The notes under the pieces: generated by a model
Told to the model about the DNA's origin: nothing
The model's database searches: none
Seen by the model: only the letters and a program-made list of their open reading frames with translations
Made by a program: the position numbers and the translations under genes
Part shown: positions 28,074 to 34,593 of the stretch, in pieces
How positions within the stretch are numbered: position 1 is the first letter of the stretch
Layout of the letters: every line of letters starts with the position of its first letter
Virus record (IMG/VR): IMGVR_UViG_3300003894_000020
Coordinates: 1 to 34,595 of that record
Length of the DNA stretch: 34,595 nt
Source of the DNA: a virus
Reading direction: 5' to 3' (one strand)

Positions 28074-29207
28074 TCACTGAAGGTCTCGCACACTCCCTTG
28101 TCCTCCAAAGAAGGAACACCACATTTCACCCATGGTTCGGTAGAGCCCTTCCTGACCCAAGCGGTTGATACCGAAGGGGTCTCCGGTCTCGATACCCGAC
28201 TCGAAGTATTGGGTCGGGATAGCCGTGCTAAACCAGACATAGTCTGTATCAAGGAAATACATTCGGCTGATGCCGTCAGTCTCAACATCTTTGGATGGGA
28301 TGATTGGCACACCGTTGTAGGTTGCGACCACGAATCCGGCTTCAATACCCGGAACACCCTTCACACCGTTGAAAGTAGGGACAACACGCTTCTCTTCCAT
28401 GAATCGCTGTTGGCTCTGTAGTAGTTGCTGGACACGCATGAGTGTGTCATAGCCAGTCATGATGACCTTGGGGTTTCCACCACGAGTCCATACTTGCTGG
28501 AAGATGGAATCAAGGTGGTCAAGGCTCAAGTTGCGGTTTGCACCGGCTGCGCCTACGCTCACTTCAGCGTTGTGGAAAGCCTGACTTCCATCACGAGTGA
28601 TACTGTAGATATCGTTGTCAGTTGCAGCACTTCTCCATGCAGCAGCGTTCATTGCGGATTCGTCAGTAGTGATACGGTCAAGCGACTCGAAATCGTTGCC
28701 TGATGGTGTATCGAAGTCTTGTAGAAGCATCTGGTTGACATGGTCAGCGTGGTGCTTACCCATCTCTTCCTTCAAGACTTGGCGGATGTCGCCAAGGCCA
28801 TCATCCTTGTCAGCAAGGAAGATTGCAGTCTCGGACATGTCGAAGGTGTGAGCCACGGTCTTGGGCTTTGCACCAACATGTAGGAAGGTAGGCTTGGTGG
28901 TCTCTGGTAGAGTAGCATTCTCAGCCACACCGCCACCCTTTGCGAAGGAAGGCTTTGCGGTGATGATTCTCCATCCACTGCGGTCCCAAGGCTTCTTTGG
29001 TAGGATACTGAAAGCGTTGAACTCTTGGTTCAACTGGCTCCAGACCTTGCGGCCATAGATTGCTTGGTAAGTTCCAGCAGTGCTGCTCATTAGCGGAGCA
29101 TCTGCCTTCAATAGTTCAGAGCCACTGTAGGAGTAGCCCATTGCGTTGCCTGCGCCATAGTAGTAGCGCTCAAGGTCTGTGACTGTTCTGATATAATCTC
29201 GTGCCAT
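28074..29207 (-). CDS. Major capsid protein, HK97 fold (377 aa)
   Basis: Start ATG 29207 (MARDYIRTVTDLERYYYGAG) lies 5 nt after the protease TGA, with GGAGGGGAGAG upstream; the ATG at 29228 is inside the protease gene. The sequence has the features of HK97-type capsid proteins of haloarchaeal viruses: an N-arm, then GRKVWSQLNQEFNAFSILPK followed by KPWDRSGWRI (about 45-75), a long spine helix region (QVLKEEMGKHHADHVNQMLL, about 134-153), and a C-terminal A-domain with the VVATYNGVPIIPS strand. The N-arm is short, so there is no HK97-style delta domain; the scaffold role is probably in the protease gene. The codon use and higher GC of this gene suggest strong expression. Capsomers assembled from this protein form the icosahedral head. 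Confidence 0.9.
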   Translation of the reverse strand: MARDYIRTVTDLERYYYGAGNAMGYSYSGSELLKADAPLMSSTAGTYQAIYGRKVWSQLNQEFNAFSILPKKPWDRSGWRIITAKPSFAKGGGVAENATLPETTKPTFLHVGAKPKTVAHTFDMSETAIFLADKDDGLGDIRQVLKEEMGKHHADHVNQMLLQDFDTPSGNDFESLDRITTDESAMNAAAWRSAATDNDIYSITRDGSQAFHNAEVSVGAAGANRNLSLDHLDSIFQQVWTRGGNPKVIMTGYDTLMRVQQLLQSQQRFMEEKRVVPTFNGVKGVPGIEAGFVVATYNGVPIIPSKDVETDGISRMYFLDTDYVWFSTAIPTQYFESGIETGDPFGINRLGQEGLYRTMGEMWCSFFGGQGSVRDLQ

Positions 29208-29212
29208 ATTAT

Positions 29213-30559
29213 TCACTCTCCCCTCCAAACACTGTTAGCCAAGTTGTGGACATCGCCCCACTCCATTGTGGCCAGTTCAGCAGTTGTAGGAATCTCAACA
29301 TTTGCGTTTGTAGCGGACTTGGCGATGGTTGTGCCACTCTCTCCGCTGGTTAGGCTGTCAATGCGCTCACTGAGTGCACTGATAGACTTCTGAATCTCTG
29401 CAAGAGGTCCACGGGCATCGTATGATGCACGCTCGGCTTCTGCCTTCTCAACTTGCTGCTCTTTGGAAAGGCGGTCAGCGAAGACTTGTCCGAGGTTGCC
29501 CTTGAACTGCTGCTCCATTGCTGCTGCCTTGTAGACTTGGTATGCTGCTTCAATGTCAGCAGAGTTTACATTGTCAGGAGTGAGGAACTCACCCTTGGTC
29601 ATTGAGGAAGCCTTGCCTTTTCCACCAGTGCCGAAGTTGGCCTTGGGGGTCTCTGGCTTGCCCTCAGTCTGCTGACGCTTGGAGGCTTGGCCACCAAAGT
29701 AAGAAGCGCCGTCAATGTTAGGGTCGCCGCCCATCTGCGCTTTGTCCATCTGGTCAAAGTGCGCACGAGCAGCAGCGGTATCAACACCAGCGCCCTTAAC
29801 AGTGCTCTCCAACCAGTTCAAGTATTCACTGGTGATGACATCACTGTATTCAGACTTCTTGGTCTTCTCACTGTCTTCGTCGTCTTTCATTTCGTCTTTC
29901 TCTTCCTTGGCGTCTTTCAATGCCTCAGGAAGTTCACCCTTCTCCATCGAGTCGATGCGACCTTCAAGTCGTGTCAACACGCTTGATAGATGGTCGAGTG
30001 TATCTGTCTGTCCTTCTGTTTCCATTGTCATATTTTCAGTCTCCTGTTTCAATATCCTGAATTGTGCTTCGGGGTTGATGCCTTTCTCGCAGATTGTTAC
30101 CTCATGTAGTTCAAGTTTCGAGATTTCCGTATAAGAGCCATGTTCTTTGTCGCTTTTTTCCATTCGTTTGAATGCTTGTCCACCAATGCTGAATCCTCTC
30201 AGGTTTCCTTTTCGTATCTCTGCGGCCACTTCTCTGGCTTTTTCGATATCATTCCTGAGTTGAACAACGACGAACATTCCGACATCGTCAACTTCGCTCT
30301 TCCACACCCTCCCATTGCTATCTGTATGTTGTTTGATTACTTCTCCAACTTGTATGTTCGAGTGTGCGAGTTGAACATTCTGATATCCCGGGTTCTCCAT
30401 GAACTTCCTGAATGCGCTCTTCAATGCCTCCTTCGTAATTAAATCGCCCTGCTTATCAACCAGTTCGACGCTTGCGTAGCCTGCGACAACGAGGTCTCCG
30501 CCCTTGAGGATAGAGATACCCTTTCTTGGGAGTGTCCGTAGTCGAGGTTCAGCCAACAC
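29213..30559 (-). CDS. Prohead protease fused to a scaffold-like region (about 448 aa)
   Basis: Start choice is uncertain: GTG 30559 or TTG 30556, both after GGTGGA, or TTG 30571. Numbering from the 30571 start, residues about 20-175 match HK97-family (S78) prohead proteases. The catalytic His is probably H70 (NVQLAHSN), the nucleophilic Ser is S128 (RGFSIGG), and the conserved segment LHEVTICEKGINPEAQF (155-171) follows. The ~275 residues after this are charged, Ala/Glu/Lys/Gln-rich and predicted coiled coil (e.g. SVLTRLEGRIDSMEKGELP). This looks like a scaffold. Fused protease-scaffolds guide capsid assembly and then are cut up by the protease. The next gene is the capsid protein, whose N-arm lacks a scaffold domain, which fits. 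The final Gly-Glu codons double as the capsid ribosome binding site. Confidence 0.88.
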   Translation of the reverse strand: MLAEPRLRTLPRKGISILKGGDLVVAGYASVELVDKQGDLITKEALKSAFRKFMENPGYQNVQLAHSNIQVGEVIKQHTDSNGRVWKSEVDDVGMFVVVQLRNDIEKAREVAAEIRKGNLRGFSIGGQAFKRMEKSDKEHGSYTEISKLELHEVTICEKGINPEAQFRILKQETENMTMETEGQTDTLDHLSSVLTRLEGRIDSMEKGELPEALKDAKEEKDEMKDDEDSEKTKKSEYSDVITSEYLNWLESTVKGAGVDTAAARAHFDQMDKAQMGGDPNIDGASYFGGQASKRQQTEGKPETPKANFGTGGKGKASSMTKGEFLTPDNVNSADIEAAYQVYKAAAMEQQFKGNLGQVFADRLSKEQQVEKAEAERASYDARGPLAEIQKSISALSERIDSLTSGESGTTIAKSATNANVEIPTTAELATMEWGDVHNLANSVWRGE

Positions 30560-30583
30560 ACAATCCACCAAACTTCTGCACTT

Positions 30584-30601: not shown

Positions 30602-33600
30602 TCATATAGATAGGGTCGCTGAATCCTCATCAATATCTAATTCTGCCTCTTCTCCAGAATCTGTTTCAAGAACTTCATGGACTCCGTCTTGCGTTTTTCC
30701 ATTTTCCTTGGCTTTCTTTTCCCAAGGCTTTTCTGGGTCAGTAGAAGGTCTTGGGCGCATATCCCAATCTGGGACCGCAGATTCATTCACAAGGCGAGTC
30801 GGCCCTCTCGGTGATTCTACTGGAGTGCCGAAATCAACTCCCATCCCTCGTGCGCCTGTGGATGTAGTTCGCTCTTTATTGAGAATATCCAATGCCCTAA
30901 TCGCTACATTCAATGCCCGCTTGATTGTTTCTTCATCATCTCCGGGCTTTTGGAATGTATCTTTGATTTTCTTAGGTTCAATTAGAGGTTCAGCATCTTC
31001 TTCTGATTCATGGACTTCTTCTTTCTTTTCTTCTTCTAATCCATAATCCAACCCCTTTAGCATAGCACCAGCAATTGGAGCCCAAAATGGGCGAAGGCTT
31101 TCTGAAAGGCGAATTGCATAATCTGAATCAGTCATATCTCCCATCAAAGCCATAGGTGAATGGATTTGCCAACCTTCTGGCCATTCATTAGACTTGTAAA
31201 TGACTTCATCTTCTATAGATATCAAGTTAATGTGAATATCGTTATCGACCATTGTAATCTGATGAGGCCAAAGAATAGGAGGATGAGATTTAGTGAGTAG
31301 ACTCAATGTTTCCAAACTGGCTGGTCCTTCTCCATATCCTTCTCCAATAACATCTTGCGCTTGGATGGTGAAGACATCTCTACCTTTACGGCTGGATTGT
31401 GAGACACTATCTACACCTACATTGACAATATCACCGACATTGAATGTCTTATCACTTCTGACTACAGTGCCAATATCCATGTATGGTTTATCATCTACAG
31501 ATTTCGCACGATTCCCCAATCCTTCATTATCCAATAATGGCCCTGCACCTAATCTATAGGAGAAGGGACCTTTGCCTCTACGGTCGAGAACAATAAGATT
31601 GACTTCTTGTGGAGACCTCAATAATACCCACTTTGGATGGCGGCGCTCTCCTTTCATGTATGTAGATTGAGAATCTCTTAGAAGATATACATCCTTATCT
31701 TCATCTTTCAGATTTTCCAATGCTTTGTTGAGGCCTTCTTCATCTGTAGTCCGTGTGTTATGTGGAGCAGGCATTTCCACATTCTCATTACTTGAATAAT
31801 GAGCACGAAGTAATTTCACACGCTCATGGGTTAGCAAATCAGATACATCACTTTCTTGGTGTTTTGTAATATCCAAAACTTGGAAATGTTGTCCCTCTTT
31901 GCTTAAGATTCCATCAATGATATAATCTTCATCTGAAATGTTCTTGAAAGAACCAGCCATTCCTGACTCCAACGATTTGCGCTCTCCATTTTCATCGAAA
32001 GCAGTAATTCGCCCTCCTTTCTTCTTGATGACTAAACGCTCACCAGTATTGATTTTTGATACTACCCAACCCCCACTAAATCCTTTGAGTGCTTCAAGGT
32101 CGTCTTTCTGGAAGATGCGATGCATAGGTCGAATAGGCGGACTCCAATCATTAGAGTCTCCTTTCATGAGCAAAGTATCTGGATTGGTCAAACTCAGAAG
32201 GCTGATATTATCTTCAGAAGCCGTAATGATGTTCGGGTCATCCATAGGAGAAGAACCATATTGAGTAGTAGACATCATATTTGGTTCTGCTAAATGTAGG
32301 TCAGAACCAATATGGTCTGCCATTTCTGGGAATGCTGCAAGAAGATAATCAGAAGGAACACTGTGTAATCGGGTTGGCACAGGAACATTACTTCGGTGAA
32401 CTTGCACACTTCCATCACTTCGGAATCGAGGCATGAAATCAGGTGCCATTCCCCATCCCCAATTCAAACGGTCTCCTTCCAATAAATCCAACGCAGTGTG
32501 GCCATTTGGCCCAACATTGTTAATCGGGAAATTAGACCACTTACTCCTTCGGATAGAAGGCATCTCTTCACTTTCTGGTTGCATTTCAGGGTCCAAAAGC
32601 AAGAAAGAGTTCAATCTGTCTAATCCATCTAATCTATTATTGTGAGTTTTGACAGTTGCTCTCCCGCTTCCTCCTGTGCGAGGCATTTCTCTACGCTGCC
32701 CATGAGGTTCGCTCTGAACCCAAGATAGCCCATGTGTTGCTGCTTCAGCGCCTTTCAGATTGAATAATTGGTGCGCTTGTCTCAATCCGGCCTGAACAGT
32801 TGCATCGCCTTGGTCGGCTAATTCATCCAAATCTGCATCTATAGGGTCTACTCTTGGGATGAGACCAGATGAATGGAGTTCTGAAATCTTGAGAGGTATT
32901 TTCTCTTTCCCGTCTAATGAATCCAATAATGCCTGTGCATTTTTCTTATGGATTGGATTGTTGGGGTCGAGTTGTAATAATTCCATAACTTCATCTACAC
33001 TATGATTAGGATTGATGGCACGCTTAGAAAGACCTTTCATCCCTTGGACAATTTTGGAGAATGGATTTTCGCCCAGTAGTTCTTCGGCTTTCTTTTCTTT
33101 TATTTCGACTCCACCATACCCATGTCCATATTGACCATGATATTCATGTGGCATTTCCATCAAATAACGATTAGCGAATCTGAAAGTCTGTAATGCATTG
33201 GAAAGCAATCGCTGCGGGTCATCTTCAGGATAAAGGTCAGGATGTTCTTTCTCCATTTTCTTTCTGAGGTCTTTGGCTACATTTGTGATAGCGGTCATAT
33301 GGCTCTTTGCCATTTCGTTATGTTTGTCCCAAGGCCATTCTGCTCTTCCATGGATTCTTTCGATATTCCTTGTTGGTATTTTGCTGAGGGCTGTCTCCAT
33401 TTCCTTAAGATACTCTTCCATGCCACGATATTCATCTGTCAATTCCTTTACCTTCGCTTCATCACCAGAAGAGATAGCATGGTTAATTCCTTCTTCTAAG
33501 TGCAATAATTCAGTGATGATGGTATCGGCTCTTCCCAACATTGCATCTTCTTCAGGTGTAGGTATATGTTCAGGCACACTTTCCATAGTATTCTTGACAC

Positions 33601-34453
33601 TCCGAATCGTATGGTCTCTCTCTTCTCTCCATGCTTCATGTGCTTCAACATCATGAACATCAGGTTCAGGTGGAATAAGTTCCAAATGTTCCGCAATAGT
33701 AGTAGCATTAGCCCTTCGGCCTAAATCTTTCATAGCCTGTAAGATAGGCATAGTATCGGATGTAAGAACACCTTGGCCCAAAGGTTTTCTTTGCAAAAGC
33801 CCTTGATGTTCAGCCCATAGATTTACATCTCCAAATGGGAGGTGTTCTGGCTGGACCTTGCCTGACATAATATCATTGAAATTGAGAATATCATTTTGCA
33901 TTGGAGAAGCAGGAGGATGCATTCGCCCAAGAATCGTAGCCAAACGATAACTACCTGCCCCTCCTGTTTGAGGATTGATATGACCAGAATAAGGTGTTTC
34001 CATACGAACAAACGGACTGTAAGTGTGTGTATTCCGACCATCCATTTCCCAATTCATTGTAGTCCCCAATTCTTTCTTTCTTTCGTCATGGCTTAATCGC
34101 ATGGCTTCATGCACAAATGGTGAATGATTGGTAGAAGTTGTCAAAGTGACATTATGTTTGGCTTGACGAGGGGCAAACTTCGGTCTAAAGTTCTCTCCAA
34201 ATACTGCGCCTGCTTGTTCCCATAGACTCAAGATTTCTCCTAAGTTTCTCTCCTTTGGTAGAGACATCATTCTTTTTCGAGATTTGGCTTCTTCAGATGA
34301 CTCATGTGGGGATGGCGCAATATGAGGGGGTCTTGCTATAGGTGGTAATATAGAACCAAGTAAGCCCAACATATCATCTCTTAGAGTCAAAGAATGTTTC
34401 TCACCATCACGGAAATCATGGGCCCCTGTCCCAAATAGTGAATGAGAACGCAT
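30602..34453 (-). CDS. Very large protein of unknown role with a degenerate DNA-ligase-like region (1283 aa visible)
   Basis: The frame runs from ATG 34453, which has no Shine-Dalgarno, and very likely continues upstream across a frameshift (see 34485-34593). Residues about 785-950 follow the order of an ATP-dependent DNA ligase core: GGWVVSKINTGERLVIKKK (794-812) in place of motif I, DYIIDGIL (843-850) where motif III normally has DGE, FQVLDI (857-862), then TYMKGERRHPKWVLLR (931-946) at motifs IV-V. An OB-like segment follows (about 988-1035, with FNVGDIVNVGVDSVSQ). K800, G804 and R806 could match motif I, but with one inserted residue and no Asp. The motif III Glu and a clear motif V Lys-x-Lys are missing, so ligation activity is doubtful. 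The first ~750 residues contain long charged helices (300-480) and no recognised domain; the last ~140 are acidic and disordered-looking. The gene lies just before the protease, where a portal or minor head protein might be expected. Confidence 0.75.
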   Translation of the reverse strand: MRSHSLFGTGAHDFRDGEKHSLTLRDDMLGLLGSILPPIARPPHIAPSPHESSEEAKSRKRMMSLPKERNLGEILSLWEQAGAVFGENFRPKFAPRQAKHNVTLTTSTNHSPFVHEAMRLSHDERKKELGTTMNWEMDGRNTHTYSPFVRMETPYSGHINPQTGGAGSYRLATILGRMHPPASPMQNDILNFNDIMSGKVQPEHLPFGDVNLWAEHQGLLQRKPLGQGVLTSDTMPILQAMKDLGRRANATTIAEHLELIPPEPDVHDVEAHEAWREERDHTIRSVKNTMESVPEHIPTPEEDAMLGRADTIITELLHLEEGINHAISSGDEAKVKELTDEYRGMEEYLKEMETALSKIPTRNIERIHGRAEWPWDKHNEMAKSHMTAITNVAKDLRKKMEKEHPDLYPEDDPQRLLSNALQTFRFANRYLMEMPHEYHGQYGHGYGGVEIKEKKAEELLGENPFSKIVQGMKGLSKRAINPNHSVDEVMELLQLDPNNPIHKKNAQALLDSLDGKEKIPLKISELHSSGLIPRVDPIDADLDELADQGDATVQAGLRQAHQLFNLKGAEAATHGLSWVQSEPHGQRREMPRTGGSGRATVKTHNNRLDGLDRLNSFLLLDPEMQPESEEMPSIRRSKWSNFPINNVGPNGHTALDLLEGDRLNWGWGMAPDFMPRFRSDGSVQVHRSNVPVPTRLHSVPSDYLLAAFPEMADHIGSDLHLAEPNMMSTTQYGSSPMDDPNIITASEDNISLLSLTNPDTLLMKGDSNDWSPPIRPMHRIFQKDDLEALKGFSGGWVVSKINTGERLVIKKKGGRITAFDENGERKSLESGMAGSFKNISDEDYIIDGILSKEGQHFQVLDITKHQESDVSDLLTHERVKLLRAHYSSNENVEMPAPHNTRTTDEEGLNKALENLKDEDKDVYLLRDSQSTYMKGERRHPKWVLLRSPQEVNLIVLDRRGKGPFSYRLGAGPLLDNEGLGNRAKSVDDKPYMDIGTVVRSDKTFNVGDIVNVGVDSVSQSSRKGRDVFTIQAQDVIGEGYGEGPASLETLSLLTKSHPPILWPHQITMVDNDIHINLISIEDEVIYKSNEWPEGWQIHSPMALMGDMTDSDYAIRLSESLRPFWAPIAGAMLKGLDYGLEEEKKEEVHESEEDAEPLIEPKKIKDTFQKPGDDEETIKRALNVAIRALDILNKERTTSTGARGMGVDFGTPVESPRGPTRLVNESAVPDWDMRPRPSTDPEKPWEKKAKENGKTQDGVHEVLETDSGEEAELDIDEDSATLSI

Positions 34454-34484
34454 TGCTCTTGATTCTGCATTCTTATCATCAAAG

Positions 34485-34593
34485 TAAGGAAATCATGCAA
34501 GATTTCAAGATAACCCATAGGAGAACGATTCATCCCTCCTTTATTGAAAGGCTTATGCCAATGGCTGGCAAAAGTTTCAGAATGAGGACCATC
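34485..34593 (-). CDS. Probable 5' continuation of the ligase-like gene, in another frame, cut by the window edge
   Basis: From the right edge a frame reads GPHSETFASHWHKPFNKGG, then MNRSPMGYLEILHDF, which looks like ordinary protein. After about 34485 this frame turns into low-quality sequence and stops at 34387, while the frame of the ligase-like gene becomes protein-like (PYFDDKNAESRAMRSHSLF). A one-base shift between the two would join them into HDFPYFDDKNAESRAMRSHS. The likely causes are a sequencing or assembly indel, or a true frameshift. Alternatively, this is the end of a separate gene whose stop is at 34387. Confidence 0.5.

Follow-up and report, generated by a model that had tools for sequence, protein, structure and literature searches.

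A degenerate DNA ligase core in a giant head-operon protein of a putative magrovirus-like virus

Results and Discussion

A ligase core in the giant head-operon protein

We found that a giant protein encoded in the head operon of a viral DNA stretch of 34,595 nucleotides, which is referred to in its whole length as the window, contains what is almost certainly a degenerate core of an ATP-dependent DNA ligase descended from a head-operon ligase. The core, which spans residues 762-1055 (31289..32170, minus strand), was identified by a PF01068 match, a PDB profile match, structural comparison, and hhalign. It comprises a nucleotidyltransferase (NTase)-like domain at approximately residues 763-950 (31604..32167, minus strand), for which residues 2-189 of the predicted model were aligned to ligase NTase domains, and an OB-fold-like domain at approximately residues 951-1055 (31289..31603, minus strand), which was all-beta in the model and lay inside the alignment to 2cfm (model residues 2-303).

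The ORF bearing this core (30605..34453, minus strand; 1283 aa), which was taken from the ORF list and aligned end to end with its homologues in two related records (L001 and L002), is located directly upstream of the gene of an S78-type prohead (head maturation) protease (29216..30571, minus strand; PF04586, 7.7e-12; phrog_23555, 5e-15), which is followed by the gene of the major capsid protein (MCP; 28077..29228, minus strand; phrog_24667, 4.3e-56). The preliminary description had placed the gene just upstream of the protease in a virion-building module, and the PF04586 and phrog_24667 matches downstream support this placement. The order in a related record (L083) was portal (phrog_18178, 1e-65), at least two small ORFs, giant, protease, and capsid protein. 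The strand, the place, and the 1283-aa length of the ORF were also correctly given in that description, but the gene itself starts outside the window. The homologues in related viral records have 1817-2400 aa, indicating that the window ORF represents only the 3' part of the gene with the true start past the contig end, and alignment to the relatives indicated that the ATG at 34453 is internal to the gene. In addition, the reading frame switches approximately 100-130 nt from the contig end, at 34460-34500 of the window and inside the giant gene. Both frames continue the giant protein of the relatives, which have a single open frame there, and the switch could be an assembly error.

The MCP is 33% identical to that of the halovirus HCTV-1, and IMG/VR contains about 600 relatives of it, in keeping with a magrovirus-like virus of marine archaea. 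This putative assignment draws on the literature on MCP kinship and not on a named record. A close-relative scan with the full 1283-aa protein returned nothing, and the phage collection held no relative of it; the relatives were recruited via the capsid protein and the family profile.

Downstream of the core, the giant has a C-terminal extension (30605..31288, minus strand), delineated by conservation and the model, that consists of a small beta/helix domain, an acidic linker, and a TG..G.......SPRGPT motif. The C-terminus, TG.KGLGID.ATP.ESPRGPT, was nearly as conserved as the ligase core, and the tail was mostly of low confidence in the model. The N-terminal region, as represented by residues 50-1380 of the L002 giant, consists of about 1300 fast-evolving residues with 5.3% His, 4.7% Met, and no cysteine, preceded by a conserved stretch of 45 residues. 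Profile and pairwise searches of the N-terminal region found no known domain and no homology to known head or ejection proteins, and a search for Walker A in the giant gave scattered chance matches only.

With regard to the fold, the best Pfam matches of the window protein as a single sequence were the snurportin cap-binding domain and DNA_ligase_A_M (PF01068), which are both of the nucleotidyltransferase fold and were both under their cut-offs, at about 1e-3 with the whole protein and at 4e-5 to 9e-5 with the domain alone. The PF01068 match of the window domain was at 8.6e-5 and 22.7 bits, under the curated cut-off of 26.2; PF01068 was matched by 31 of 38 family members (best 1.8e-8), and the curated cut-off was passed in 7 of 18 related records. 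The RNA-ligase family PF09414 had no match in the related genomes. When the family profile was compared with PDB sequences, the values were 1.8e-5 to 3.2e-5 for Thermococcus DNA ligases and 0.003 for the Pyrococcus enzyme, and motifs IIIa, IV, and V were in register. An AlphaFold model of the domain, built from 37 family sequences, had the NTase fold followed by the OB domain, with both parts mostly at a pLDDT of 80-96. A Foldseek search with this model returned archaeal DNA ligases as the best matches (4eq5, E 8.8e-14), and its VIA comparison with the Pyrococcus furiosus DNA ligase 2cfm resulted in a Z of 22.6 over 279 residues with an rmsd of 3.6. Archaeal replicative ligases (2cfm, Thermococcus 4eq5, and Archaeoglobus 3gde) share with the window domain the NTase and OB parts and the order of motifs, with Z values of 20-23, whereas the window domain is only about 15% identical to them, is without the catalytic residues, and is encoded in a head operon as part of a giant protein. 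The profiles, the PDB match, and the Z of 22.6 are thus in agreement with the initial proposal that the protein contains a degenerate ligase core, with an OB region and with motifs I, III, IIIa, and IV-V in the expected order. The structural and profile check suggested for it recovered the ligase fold, with no strong support for another family, and the proposal was not refuted.

Loss of the catalytic residues

The motifs of the window domain were located by alignment. The remnant of motif I is KINTGER (residues 800-806; 32036..32056, minus strand), in which the position of the catalytic Lys is I801, and that of motif III is DGIL (residues 847-850; 31904..31915, minus strand), in which the catalytic Glu is replaced by Ile. 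Motif IIIa, VLDI (residues 859-862; 31868..31879, minus strand), is kept, as indicated by the PDB profile match and by the presence of its Asp in all of 109 distinct relatives. The motif IV-V region, DVYLLRDSQSTYMKGERRHPKWVLLR (residues 921-946; 31616..31693, minus strand), was delineated by the alignment of the family and the intact ligases described below; in the window, the motif IV Lys is replaced by Arg and the motif V Lys pair by Leu and Arg.

The replacements were consistent across the family. The motif I Lys position was occupied by W in 85, Y in 12, M in 6, I in 4, and S in 2 of the 109 relatives and by K in none, although the next G (108/109) and the R (95/109) were kept. Some members have WYDGKR or WYDGYR at motif I, indicating that the Lys itself was swapped out of a recognisable KYDGxR motif. 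The motif III Glu was replaced by I, V, M, or L in 109/109 and retained in 0/109. The motif IV Lys was changed to R in 110 of 112 sequences and the first motif V Lys to L, V, M, or I in all 112, and RD..TYM.GE.RHPKW in the motif IV-V region was nearly invariant. The complete absence of the motif I Lys and the motif III Glu among the relatives substantiates the earlier claim that key catalytic residues are altered. The claim that KINTGER stands for KxDGxR was correct in that motif I is altered, but its Lys is not the displaced catalytic Lys: VVQEKYDGIR of the intact form aligns over VVSKINTGER of the window, so that the window Lys is one residue out of register, opposite the Glu of the intact form, and the catalytic Lys corresponds to Ile. 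Judging from these sequences, ligase catalysis was probably lost across the whole magrovirus-like clade and not in one virus alone.

Of 80 capsid loci, 65 extend to the gene, and each of these had the ligase domain; the other 15 are cut off by contig ends. The information content per column was 2.0-3.5 bits in the ligase core compared with about 1.2 in the N-terminal region of the giant. For close pairs, pN/pS was mostly 0.15-0.25 in the core compared with 0.4-0.6 in the N-terminal region, these values being approximate because dS was near saturation. No other part of the giant is as conserved as the ligase domain, which is under purifying selection and is not a decaying segment of a pseudogene.

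An intact ligase at the same place in the operon

When cellular genome contigs were scanned with the family profile, the only relative identified was an 842-aa protein encoded directly before a protease gene on a contig (L191; NZMJ01000101.1) binned with a Maricaulis MAG. This protein matched PF01068 at 1.6e-30 and has the motifs EKYDGIR, DAEL, FDIM, EGVVIK, and WIKFK. The contig bears portal (phrog_18178), protease, and capsid genes of the kind of the window's virus and was, for this reason, treated as a virus contig; it is archaeal-virus-like, and its presence in a bacterial MAG is likely to be a binning error.

Further IMG/VR scans for the intact form (17 and 80 loci, partly overlapping) resulted in 70 distinct near-full-length sequences from marine viral contigs, 68 of which have all five motifs. 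A homologous protease was encoded no more than 100 nt downstream of the ligase in 68/70, and, in the first set of intact loci, the protease matched its window counterpart at about 1e-75 and the capsid protein at about 1e-80. Comparison of the giant with the intact protein by hhalign gave an alignment of 363 columns (Prob 99.9, E 1.6e-34). The intact head-operon ligases (e.g., L191, L192, and L202) share with the dead form the place before the homologous protease and capsid genes, a PM[YH]RIF...LKGF[ST]GEW lead-in, and STY..G...PKW. They differ in that they retain KYDGxR, D[AG]EL, FDI, EGVVIK, and WIKxK, contain, between motifs III and IIIa, about 22 residues that are absent from the dead form, and are about 840-880 aa long, compared with about 1800-2400 aa for the dead giant. 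The ORFs between the portal and ligase genes in the intact clade had no detectable homology to the giant. The predicted model of an intact 830-aa homologue, with a pLDDT of 48.6, was left out of the analysis.

In a tree with cellular archaeal and viral replicative ligases, the head-operon ligases formed one clade (100/100), and the dead ligases formed one branch inside it (100/99-100); both clades were unchanged when the tree was rebuilt without the replicative rows. Because the outgroup has the catalytic form, a single loss of catalysis is the simplest history, and the dead form would accordingly have arisen once within the head-operon clade, as far as the sequences tell.

Thus, a conserved head-operon DNA ligase is identified in abundant marine viruses, and its two forms provide a natural experiment, in which a clade with all catalytic residues can be compared with a sister clade that has none of them, the gene position being shared and purifying selection acting. 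The role of a ligase in the virus head thereby becomes directly testable. We found no published description of a head-operon ligase, live or dead, in a literature search not covering Philosof et al. 2017, in line with the earlier statement that no system of this kind is described. As far as checked, the ligase fold, the pseudoenzyme, and the giant head protein are each of a known kind, and what is new is their combination and the split between live and dead forms at one locus.

Possible roles of the non-catalytic domain

The comparisons show that the domain descends from an ATP-dependent DNA ligase whose gene belongs to the head operon of a group of marine tailed viruses, in the order portal - ... 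- ligase - protease - major capsid protein. The ligase would be made with the capsid and either become part of the head or accompany the genome on delivery, and its intact form would seal nicks, be it in packaged DNA or in incoming DNA. In the lineage of the window, sealing would have been given up while the NTase-OB body was kept, serving a minor head protein or an ejected protein as a binding module without catalysis. Its likely partners would be viral DNA, a nucleotide, or the portal, protease, or capsid proteins, a contact with DNA or the genome end being our first guess. The presence of the giant in the virus particle is suggested by gene order only. As precedents, a DNA ligase is found in the nucleoid of African swine fever virus (PMC12172490), and N4-like phages have giant head proteins that are ejected (PMC12633501). 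For this explanation as a whole, namely the conversion of a head-operon ligase into a domain without catalysis in a minor head protein or an injected one, the chances seem to us evenly balanced. Binding of the domain to DNA in the head or during delivery is a more tentative suggestion, with somewhat less than an even chance. It is rather doubtful that tailed viruses of marine archaea have a dedicated virion ligase, distinct from the replicative one, for mending nicked genomes at packaging or entry, and that in magroviruses this enzyme became a dead nick- or end-binding clamp on a giant head or ejected protein, capable of recognizing broken or terminal DNA without sealing it.

The net charge per 100 aa was -1.7 for the dead domain and +1.0 for the intact form, and about -3 to -5.5 for the other structural proteins tested. 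The slight acidity of the dead domain argues, if only mildly, against a simple DNA clamp and does not favour non-specific DNA binding. With this charge pattern, the domain may still bind DNA, and a purely structural role is the main rival, in which the domain is only a module for protein-protein contacts, for example docking the giant to the portal, protease, or capsid, without any role for DNA or nucleotide. This would also be in line with the loss of every catalytic residue and with the invariable location of the gene next to those of the protease and capsid protein. However, the highest conservation was found in the former active-site region, motifs IV-V, which exceeds what is expected for a mere scaffold, and D, TY, G, and PKW in this region are common to the intact enzyme. 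We regard the structural role as somewhat unlikely, although it is the foremost of the alternatives.

Snurportin-1 has an m3G-cap-binding domain that is a non-catalytic member of the nucleotidyltransferase-like fold. The dead domain could similarly bind a nucleotide or a capped or adenylated end without reacting, and the Trp found at the motif I Lys position in most relatives could stack on the base. Consistent with this, the snurportin domain (PF21974) was the second-best Pfam match, with 19 of 38 members matched and a best value of 2.7e-6. The match, at 24.2 bits, did not reach the curated cut-off of 27, however, and the position is Ile in the window and Tyr or Met in other members. Furthermore, snurportin-1 is a eukaryotic import adaptor without an OB domain, unlike the window protein, and we know of no cap-like viral ligand. 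Binding of this kind is quite improbable.

In a druskavirus, the corresponding operon slot is occupied by HCTV-1 gp109, a 1210-aa zeta-toxin-domain protein (L081, 5744-9376), which resembles the giant in being a large enzyme-like protein of a related archaeal virus with the protease and capsid genes close by, but has a kinase/toxin-type domain and no ligase core. Because the slot may thus carry cargo, and because the N-terminal region of the giant evolves fast, the giant might be a delivered effector, with its ligase-like domain serving as a decoy or inhibitor of host or viral ligation or repair. This is very improbable, since the ligase core evolves slowly, unlike a domain that interacts with the host in an arms race, and since the giant and the HCTV-1 protein are without homology. 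A comparison of the giant with HCTV-1 gp108, gp109, and gp111 and with a vir519 protein detected no homology to any of them. Between portal and protease, different archaeal viruses seem to encode large enzyme-like proteins that are not related to each other.

Finally, it is hardly conceivable that the window protein has remained a ligase by using a different Lys, such as K800, one residue upstream of the lost one, because, although a neighbouring Lys was present in 57/109 sequences, the window's kind among them, it was found in only 8 of 29 clusters at 70% identity, and because the loss of the motif III Glu and motif IV/V Lys would leave the chemistry without its metal and phosphate ligands.

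Other ligase-like proteins in the related genomes

Two near-complete genomes of the intact clade (96 kb) encode a canonical stand-alone ligase of 516-520 aa far from the head operon, indicating that the head-operon enzyme is an extra ligase beside a separate replicative-type one. In the magrovirus-like genomes of 77-110 kb, the PF01068-like matches were the dead domain only, plus one weak match to a 459-aa ORF. In the papers searched, an ATP-dependent DNA ligase of magroviruses is mentioned only among the replication proteins. Ligase annotations in magroviruses may mean non-catalytic proteins, the dead domain being nearly the sole PF01068-like match in the near-complete related genomes.

The 459-aa ORF, found in one genome, is separate from the giant and has relatives in seven other records. 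These eight records of near-complete magrovirus-like genomes (L183-L190; e.g., G005, 74278-75654) encode, at a distance from the head operon, a second ligase-like protein of about 460-525 aa, which has the look of a degenerate ligase in its full length. In an end-to-end alignment with the stand-alone ligase from the sister clade, this protein reached an E of only 2.4e-4 and a probability of 44%. From this weakly supported kinship, magroviruses may have two non-catalytic relatives of ligases. The motif I Lys position of this second protein was mostly occupied by H (FLHI).
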